A DNA stretch of 49,621 nt, from the NCBI GenBank assembly GCA_028712095.1, contig JAQTQU010000003.1:1-49621 (forward strand). Direction: 5' to 3'. Below, piece after piece: positions 34,509-43,916 of this stretch. Every line of letters starts with the position of its first letter. The stretch's first letter is position 1. The notes beneath the pieces were generated by a model, which was not told the origin of the DNA, searched no databases, and worked only from the letters and a program-made list of their open reading frames with translations. The stretch comes from Candidatus Peribacteraceae bacterium (GTDB taxonomy: Bacteria > Patescibacteriota > Gracilibacteria > Peribacterales > Peribacteraceae). A program made the position numbers and the translations under genes.

Positions 34509-34653
34509 AAAACAAAACACAAACACATACGTCCGTTGAGTATGGATATGTACCTCACAATGAAATATTTGTTATATTGATGCGGTTTACTGTTAGGAGG
34601 GTAAAGGGGTGTGGGGGCTTAGGGAACCGAACAAGGTGCCCTAGCCCCCACGC
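34509..34653 (+). ncRNA. Candidate structured RNA, copy 2
   Basis: Second copy of the element at 4404-4550. Shared A-rich run AAACAAAACACAAAC near 34510-34524, conserved block GGTTTACTGTTAGGAGGGTAA from 34584, and a hairpin: 34611-34619 pair with 34643-34651, T34620 bulged, 34621-34628 pair with 34635-34642 (one A-G mismatch), loop GAACAA. Compared with copy 1, at least five pairs change on both sides while staying paired, and the bulged T and loop are kept. No gene in 34504-34719. Confidence 0.65.
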
Positions 34654-34719
34654 AAGGAACAGATCTGTACATCCTTCAACAAAAAGGCGATCCCTTCCGA
34701 ATTCATCCAAAAAAAATCC

Positions 34720-37785: not shown

Positions 37786-38872
37786 GTGGAAGACCTGCTG
37801 CAAAAACTCAAGACACTGTCATCGGCAATCGCGACGGGGAAGGACTCTCTTTGAGGCAAAAGGTCTTCCCCAGCGCATTCAGGAACTGACGCTTGAGACA
37901 GGCGCCGCGGATATTTGGAATGATCAAAAGCGGGCCCAGGCCATGTTCACGGAGCTGAAGGCACTCAAGAAACAGTGGGAACCCGTGCAGCATATTGCCG
38001 ACGAGGCACAAGCGCTCCTCGAAATGGTTGAGGCCGCATCAGAAGAGGAACAGATCGCACTGGCAGCAGATGCCGGGCAGTTGGAAAAAGAATGGCTGTC
38101 TCTGGAGACGCAGCTCTACCTGAGCGGCGAATTCGATGCGCAGAACTGCTACCTCACCGTCAGCGGCGGAGCGGGCGGCACCGAAGCGCAGGACTGGGCC
38201 GCGATGCTCATGCGCATGTACCTGCGCTACTGCGAACGGCAGCAGTGGAAGACGACGATCGTCGAAAAGACCGACGGGCAGGAGGCGGGCATCAAAACAG
38301 CCACCATCCATGTGGAGGGTACATTCGCGTACGGTAACCTGAAGTGCGAAAAAGGAACGCACCGCCTCGTGCGTCTCTCGCCCTTCAACGCCAAGAGCCT
38401 GCGACAGACCAGTTTCGCGCTCGTGGAGGTACTGCCGGAATTGCCGGAATCGACGGGTATCGAGATCAATCCCTCGGACCTGCGCATCGACACCTACCGC
38501 AGCGGCGGCGCGGGGGGTCAGAACGTGAACAAGGTCGAGAGCGCCATCCGCATCACGCACCTGCCCAGCGGCATCGTCGTCGCGTGTCAGAACGAGCGCA
38601 GCCAACTGCAGAACCGGCAACAGGCCATGAACATGCTGCGTGCCAAATTGCTGGAGAAAGAAAGGCGCGAACAACTGGAGACGAAGGCGGAACTGAAAGG
38701 CGCGAAGCAGAGCGCGGATTTCGGTCAGCAAATCCGCAGTTACGTTCTGCATCCCTACCAGATGGTGAAGGACCTCAGGACCGACGTTGAAACGAGCAAC
38801 ACGACCGGAGTACTGGACGGGGATATTCAGCAATTCATCGATGCGGAGCTGAAAAGGGAAGAACGATCATGA
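37786..38872 (+). CDS. prfB: Peptide chain release factor 2 (programmed +1 frameshift)
   Basis: 361 aa after frameshift. GTG 37786 opens VEDLLQKLKTLSSAIATGKD then SL, and the frame meets TGA at 37852. Shifting +1 at CTT T continues EAKGLPQRIQELTLETGAADIWNDQKRAQAMF, the usual RF2 N-terminus. Then the stop-codon-reading motif SPF (about residue 197, RLVRLSPFNAKSLRQTSFA) and the catalytic GGQ (about 243, SGGAGGQNVNKVESAIRITH). RF2 ends translation at TGA and TAA and regulates itself through this shift. The ATG at 37943 only starts the longest uninterrupted frame. Confidence 0.96.
37837..37854 (+). promoter_or_regulatory. prfB +1 frameshift site
   Basis: GGGGAAGGACTCTCTTTGAG: slippery CTT (37849-37851) before TGA (37852-37854), with a purine-rich GGGGAAGG upstream as the ribosome-pairing stimulator. 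Matches the classic CTT TGA arrangement. Confidence 0.92.
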
Positions 38873-38988
38873 ATGTCAGTCCAATAAGAACGCACCCCCC
38901 CGTGCAATCGTATACAGTATTCAGAATGGAGTATGAAGGGAACGCAAATGAGGTGCTGCATACTGCATACTTATCCCTGCATACTCAC

Positions 38989-39014
38989 AAAAAGGTGCCC
39001 CTTTCGAGGCACCC
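38989..39014 (-). terminator. Rho-independent terminator of the histone gene
   Basis: On the minus strand GGTGCC (39008-39013), loop TCGAAAGG, GGCACC (38994-38999), then TTTTTGTG. Located 25 nt after the histone stop codon. Confidence 0.8.
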
Positions 39015-39038
39015 TTGATTCCTAAGTGTGAACAGGAT

Positions 39039-39209
39039 TTACAAGTCGCAGGCGCGGACCGTCTTGCGGCCGTTCTCCTGGGCGCGCTTGGCGGCCTTCT
39101 TGAGAGCGTCCTCGAGGTACTTGCTGGCGGCATCCGCGAGGTCGCCGGCCGTCATCATGTCGGCAGCCTTGAGGAGCTCCTTGACCTTGGAAGCAACGAC
39201 GTAGCTCAT
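39039..39209 (-). CDS. Bacterial histone-fold protein
   Basis: 56 aa from ATG 39209: MSYVVASKVKELLKAADMMT, then AGDLADAASKYLEDALKKAA and KRAQENGRKTVRACDL. A single histone fold: short first helix, long central helix, then the loop and last turn with the RxTxxxxD motif (RKTVRACD) that marks archaeal and bacterial histones. It is close in layout to the Bdellovibrio histone (SKVK at the start, GRKTV near the end). Probably a dimeric DNA-binding chromosome protein. It has its own promoter (TTGCAG, 18 nt, TAGAAT) and terminator. The annotated open frame extends upstream to 39296, but that part is outside the fold. Confidence 0.88.
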   Translation of the reverse strand: MSYVVASKVKELLKAADMMTAGDLADAASKYLEDALKKAAKRAQENGRKTVRACDL

Positions 39210-39241
39210 GAAAAAGGGGGGAAAAAATAAGGAACGGGGTG

Positions 39242-39271
39242 ATTCTACGCATGCCCGTTTGCCCCCTGCAA
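39242..39271 (-). promoter_or_regulatory. Promoter of the histone gene
   Basis: TTGCAG (39266-39271), 18-nt spacer, TAGAAT (39242-39247). The leader to the ATG at 39209 is about 25 nt, longer than for most genes here, and is pyrimidine-rich. Confidence 0.6.
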
Positions 39272-43692: not shown

Positions 43693-43710
43693 TTTTTCTT
43701 TTCTTAACCT

Positions 43711-43816
43711 CTCCCCCTAGCCCCCTCTCCCGTGGAGAGGGGGAATGTATGTGTTTGTGTTTGTCACACACGTTGGAGTGCTCCCCTTCCTCCTCGGGAG
43801 GAAGGGGCCGGGGGAT
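43711..43816. repeat. Cluster of GC-rich palindromes
   Basis: CCCCCTCTCC (43721-43730), loop CGT, GGAGAGGGGG (43734-43743); then CCCCTTCCTCC (43783-43793), loop TCG, GGAGGAAGGGG (43797-43807). Both stems are perfect. The whole spacer 43693-43916 holds repeats of this kind and no gene. Confidence 0.75.
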
Positions 43817-43916
43817 GGAGGTTACGTACAAAGAGGAAAGGGGGTTGGGAGATGAAGGTTTGTACAAAAAATGAAAGGGTGAGGGGGCGTGAGATTCGTG
43901 ATGAGAGAACCAAAGA

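Follow-up and report, generated by a model that had tools for sequence, protein, structure and literature searches.

A tail-less, FtF-type histone predicted from sequence as a core gene product beside HU in Candidatus Peribacteraceae

The window, by which we mean the whole 49,621-nucleotide stretch of DNA analysed here, belongs to a member of Candidatus Peribacteraceae (Patescibacteria) and carries on its minus strand a short gene with signals of its own, facing the gene for release factor 2:

39266-39271, minus strand: -35-like element TTGCAG, with an 18-nt spacer to the -10
39242-39247, minus strand: -10-like hexamer TAGAAT, 32 nt before the ATG
39210-39235, minus strand: pyrimidine-rich 5' leader from a presumed RNA start, lacking a Shine-Dalgarno sequence
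39039-39209, minus strand: coding sequence of a predicted face-to-face (FtF) type alpha-3 histone of 56 aa (ATG 39209-39207, TAA 39041-39039)
38987-39015, minus strand: intrinsic terminator with a 10-bp stem, GAAA loop and T-run (-30.1 kcal/mol, z -4.9)
37786-38872, plus strand: prfB (release factor 2), convergent neighbour lying outside the histone unit

Frame 1 of the minus strand between 39039 and 39209 translates into MSYVVASKVKELLKAADMMTAGDLADAASKYLEDALKKAAKRAQENGRKTVRACDL followed by the TAA stop, i.e., a single histone fold of 56 residues in which RKTV-x3-D occupies residues 48-55, with a computed pI of 9.2 and mass of 6.0 kDa. The sequence-only reading, which had described a single-fold, 56-residue protein with an RKTV...D loop and had placed a histone in a CPR bacterium, was correct on both points, given this translation and the lineage of the host. 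Four genomes of the same genus encode the identical protein, the genes differing at 2-8 synonymous and no nonsynonymous sites, whereas the adjacent prfB is 87-91% identical among same-genus genomes; across the family the dN/dS of the histone is ~0.24 (883 pairs). Synonymous-only change within the genus and conservation in the family rule out a chance or shadow frame, while the plus-strand frames of 71 and 58 residues lying over the gene are themselves shadows without support. The Pfam profile of archaeal histones, PF00808, gives the protein 19.4 bits, just below its cut-off of 21.4, so that automatic annotation may overlook it.

A promoter and a terminator belonging to the gene itself had also been proposed. 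A consensus scan of the single sequence found neither, the promoter escaping it because its -35 element departs from TTGACA, and it was the comparison across loci that upheld the proposal: 59 of the 67 family loci compared have TANAAT at the matching place (0.8 by shuffling), TTG precedes it by 14-20 nt in all 59 of these (0.1 expected for the pair), and a stem-loop with a T-run lies just past the histone stop in 56 of 67 (1.25 expected), L156 and L157 having been entered as misses in these 67-locus promoter, terminator and leader counts through misread rows. By its sequence pattern the promoter is conserved and sigma-70-like, and the gene reads as an independent transcription unit. Immediately before the ATG, 24 of 25 bases are C or T, the highest value among 489 sampled genes, and the family leaders average 86% pyrimidine over 20 nt (67 loci), with no Shine-Dalgarno-like site before the histone at any of the 67. 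Such leaders also lie directly before the start codons of other likely highly expressed genes (HU, rplL, infC and groEL, among others), and a histone-specific signal was ruled out on this account. Shine-Dalgarno-like sites precede only ~4-7% of the 489 sampled genes, whose start sites were placed crudely.

The neighbourhood is shared as well: in 45 of 68 family loci prfB follows the histone gene downstream in convergent orientation, and in 5 more it lies on the same strand, within ~1.2 kb upstream of the histone; this conserved placement suggests that the histone gene has mostly been inherited in place. In the window prfB begins with GTG and contains an apparent programmed +1 frameshift, CTT TGA, at 37849-37854 of the plus strand, and the mechanical list of open reading frames holds its downstream part alone, from 37943. 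Dispersed intergenic repeats occur at ~34513-34665 and 43703-43842, with many more copies in a genome of the same genus (G184).

The histone was found in 68 of the 74 Ca. Peribacteraceae genomes and in 55 of the 57 good ones, and it is a core gene of this family. Both absences among the good genomes are best explained by assembly gaps. G127, a one-contig genome of the same genus, is rated 98% complete yet is without at least 15 kb that hold prfB, infC, rpmI and rplT in its relatives; a real loss of the histone was considered and rejected there, because the entire 15-kb region, with prfB, infC and the genes for L35 and L20, gave scattered weak matches only, which makes an assembly gap most likely. 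In G265 the contig ends inside prfB, 5 nt past a partial prfB match. Identical or near-identical copies of the histone lie on contigs named Candidatus Peribacter or Peribacteraceae. Peribacteraceae histone genes were also met on contigs labelled Euryarchaeota ARS80 (L023) and Rokubacteria GWA2_70_23 (L072), which are probably misbinned, and their readable parts are identical to L100/L110 and L089, respectively.

As to the fold, the best sequence matches in the PDB are HLp of Leptospira perolatii (E 1.4e-6; PDB 9QT0/9QT1/9QT2; PMC12701072), HBb of Bdellovibrio bacteriovorus (Bd0055; 1.3e-5; 8CMP, 8FVX) and HTkC of Thermococcus kodakarensis (8.9e-5; 9F2C). A single-chain model built from 24 related sequences reached moderate confidence (pLDDT 88.4, pTM 0.62), with helices at residues 3-15 and 22-45 and a short third helix of one turn at 53-55. 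Foldseek placed HLp on top (TM 0.84), and VIA-align gave Z 7.5 against HLp (1.5 Å over 55 residues), 7.1 against HBb and 7.0 against HTkC, the seven entries of these three proteins ranging from 6.7 to 7.5 and every other histone remaining at or below 5.4. The sequence-only reading had staked its assignment on a predicted histone fold, and the models of the singlet and of a natural doublet (see below) both adopt one. The model and the fold matches display the 3-4-residue alpha-3 and shortened alpha-2 that define alpha-3-truncated histones (PMC11390915). The nucleosomal HMf/HTk type, with its long alpha-2 and 10-residue alpha-3, does not fit a one-turn alpha-3 and a PF00808 score under the cut-off, nor do the DUF1931 pseudodimers fit a single fold that scores 15.7 bits against PF09123 (cut-off 21.8).

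Within the alpha-3 histones, the literature tells FtF tetramers from bacterial dimers by an Arg and an Asn at the dimer-dimer contact, absent from the latter, and the FtF profile combines conserved R48 and N52 at these contacts with an RxTxxxxD motif. In HLp the tetramer residues are R49, N53 and R55 (PMC12701072), with which R42, N46 and R48 of the Peribacteraceae protein align in the PDB sequence alignment. These three, together with T50, D55 and K10, are invariant in all 64 aligned family singlets, each of which thus has the Arg, the Asn and RxTxxxxD, and R42, N46 and R48 are kept in archaeal and other bacterial relatives too. An HBb-like dimer that bends or coats DNA, with no wrapping by a tetramer, would agree with the rank of HBb as second-best PDB family by sequence, with a fold nearly as near as that of HLp, and with the alpha-3 fold, RKTxxxD loop and alpha-1 lysines common to both proteins; HBb, however, has Ser and Asp at the R42 and N46 positions, as expected of bacterial dimers, whereas both FtF residues persist throughout the family, and we consider this alternative improbable. 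By sequence, the Peribacteraceae protein is an FtF alpha-3 histone and not of the Bdellovibrio dimer type. Bdellovibrio, earlier named as a group known for its histones, therefore proves the less close kin, the interface residues placing the protein with HLp and HTkC. The interface is not copied from HLp in full, since two further tetramer contacts are changed (S52 to E45, T61 to C54), and N46 is not strictly required, as HTkC forms a tetramer with Glu at that position.

HLp is the closest known counterpart by both sequence and fold, sharing the single alpha-3 fold, the three tetramer residues and the RD clamp. The two are ~40% identical, and the Peribacteraceae histone differs in having no N-terminal tail and in reading RKT in loop 2 where HLp has RTT. 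HTkC and the archaeal FtF histones are tail-less like the present protein, equal in length and of the same fold. HLp contacts DNA through A13, S14, K15, K17, K21, T27, G29, T56 and T57 (PMC12701072), whose counterparts here are A6, S7, K8, K10, K14, T20, G22, K49 and T50; eight of the nine are identical and the ninth is a T to K change. Two of these positions vary among the 64 family members, K8 being replaced by Ala, His or Arg in 24 and position 49 being non-basic in 26, and DNA affinity may consequently vary inside the family.

By analogy with HLp, from which the tetramer, the wrapping and the length of wrapped DNA are all borrowed, two 56-residue chains would pair by their long alpha-2 helices in a handshake dimer, and two dimers would join as a tetrameric ring, meeting at loop 2, the single turn of alpha-3 and the C-terminal part of alpha-2, with R42, N46, R48, D55 and L56 at the closure. 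A positive belt made up of the DNA-contact counterparts listed above would grip the DNA backbone, so that ~60 bp might be held around each tetramer without sequence preference. It is in our judgement probable that this FtF histone of the Ca. Peribacteraceae core gene set acts as a DNA-wrapping tetramer and as a constitutive, abundant nucleoid protein beside HU.

Regarding abundance, the codon adaptation index of the histone gene, a proxy of expression to which a short gene and a Lys/Ala-rich composition add noise, is 0.757, above all 489 genes sampled from about half of the genome (0.54 Mb) and above 97% of 56-codon chunks, the small reference set comprising genes for translation, chaperones and HU. 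Codon bias thus suggests high expression of the histone. The sequence-only reading had raised the possibility that histones are the main chromosome protein in Patescibacteria and had proposed looking for HU genes. The same genome does encode a full-length HU (E 8e-28), HU is present in 67 of the 74 family genomes, including 55 of the 57 good ones, and the claim, as worded, is not supported. Leptospira, where HU is absent and an FtF histone is abundant and essential, offers a precedent for a histone that replaces HU as main or only chromosome protein, yet the Peribacteraceae histone coexists with HU while HLp hosts lack it, and the HU gene itself lies at the 95th percentile of codon adaptation, making such a replacement most improbable here. 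Bdellovibrio, which has histones plus HU, appears by analogy the better precedent for the relation to HU. An SMC_N match is also present in this genome, and no member of the ferritin/Dps family was found in it.

The presence of HU bears on another alternative, namely a histone-fold protein regulating few promoters, as proposed for some halophile histones, since HU could handle the bulk of packing and the haloarchaeal histone HpyA has been reported as non-essential and of low abundance (PMC10128011). Against such a role stand the top rank of the histone in codon adaptation within the sampled half of the genome, the conserved sigma-70-like promoter, the retention of the backbone-contact residues and the absence of an extra domain, and we judge it unlikely. 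A DNA-wrapping nucleoid protein working alongside HU, and not in its place, is by analogy the likely role. As nearly all family members have the histone beside HU, the Peribacteraceae as a group probably pack their chromosome with both proteins together.

Two histone folds in one frame were found in three Peribacteraceae genomes (L139, L143 and L146) and in one genome from elsewhere in the Gracilibacteria (L158), the doublets measuring 119-121 aa. The model of L146 is a single-chain handshake pseudodimer (pLDDT 91.8, pTM 0.83) that matches over its whole length H2A-H2B fusions (Z 9.7) and the Methanopyrus doublet 1f1e (Z 8.5, 117 residues), each half lying at ~1 Å from HLp; as a model, it lends indirect support to a handshake of the 56-residue singlet. 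The Peribacteraceae doublets consist of the FtF singlet copied in tandem and retain RKTV and the alpha-1 lysines, unlike the known bacterial double histone folds (1WWI, 1R4V; DUF1931), which likewise have two folds per chain but, according to a 2026 review, lack DNA-binding residues. In all three Peribacteraceae doublets, the N-terminal half has Ala at the position of the tetramer Arg, which the C-terminal half keeps. In the FtF ring this Arg binds the carboxylate at the C-terminus of the opposite chain, so that an N-half devoid of both the Arg and a free C-terminus suggests chains pairing N-to-N and C-to-C, or a ring with closure at one side only. These doublets provide single-chain versions of the histone for structural work.

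Outside the class Gracilibacteria the nearest relatives are tail-less histones of DPANN archaea (Aenigmatarchaeota and Diapherotrites), 61-65% identical, although the host here is a bacterium. Elsewhere in the class the histone is rare, with two matching genomes, of another family, among 242. A sample of 380 genomes of the phylum gave 11 matches outside the class: ten, from families f38, f68 and f31, are clear singlet histones (L205-L214), HLp-like and mostly preceded by a strong Shine-Dalgarno sequence, and the eleventh (G467) is only a weak match inside an 830-aa frame. In a tree of 56 columns the Peribacteraceae histones group among those of DPANN archaea, and those of other Patescibacteria fall next to HLp. 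Approximately unbiased (AU) tests rejected neither a single Peribacteraceae clade (p 0.155) nor a single clade of all Patescibacteria (p 0.195), and given the latter value separate origins of the Patescibacteria histones are not proven; transfer of the histone from archaea is, on these sequence relationships, no more than a lead. We advance tentatively, leaning somewhat against it as a whole, a wider picture in which this CPR family has a core, highly expressed, tail-less, DPANN-like chromatin histone beside HU, possibly exchanged with DPANN archaea, likewise ultra-small organisms, and in which the doublets of some members, keeping the DNA contacts while their N-half lacks the tetramer Arg as well as the free C-terminus to be bound by it, may build a ring closed on one side.

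Bacterial histones have been reported in ~1-2% of bacterial genomes, and surveys name Spirochaetota, Planctomycetota, Bdellovibrionota and Myxococcota as lineages with FtF histones. No description of histones in Ca. Peribacteraceae was found in the literature consulted, the surveys being covered by their main text, where the family is not named, while their supplementary tables may list it; the protein is a known kind of histone in a further lineage. Near-universal, usually at one conserved place and almost always accompanied by HU, it makes this family a natural case for the sharing of a chromosome between histone and HU. Related small histones, 43-47% identical, also occur on three viral contigs (L215-L217), the protein of L215 being 64 aa long.
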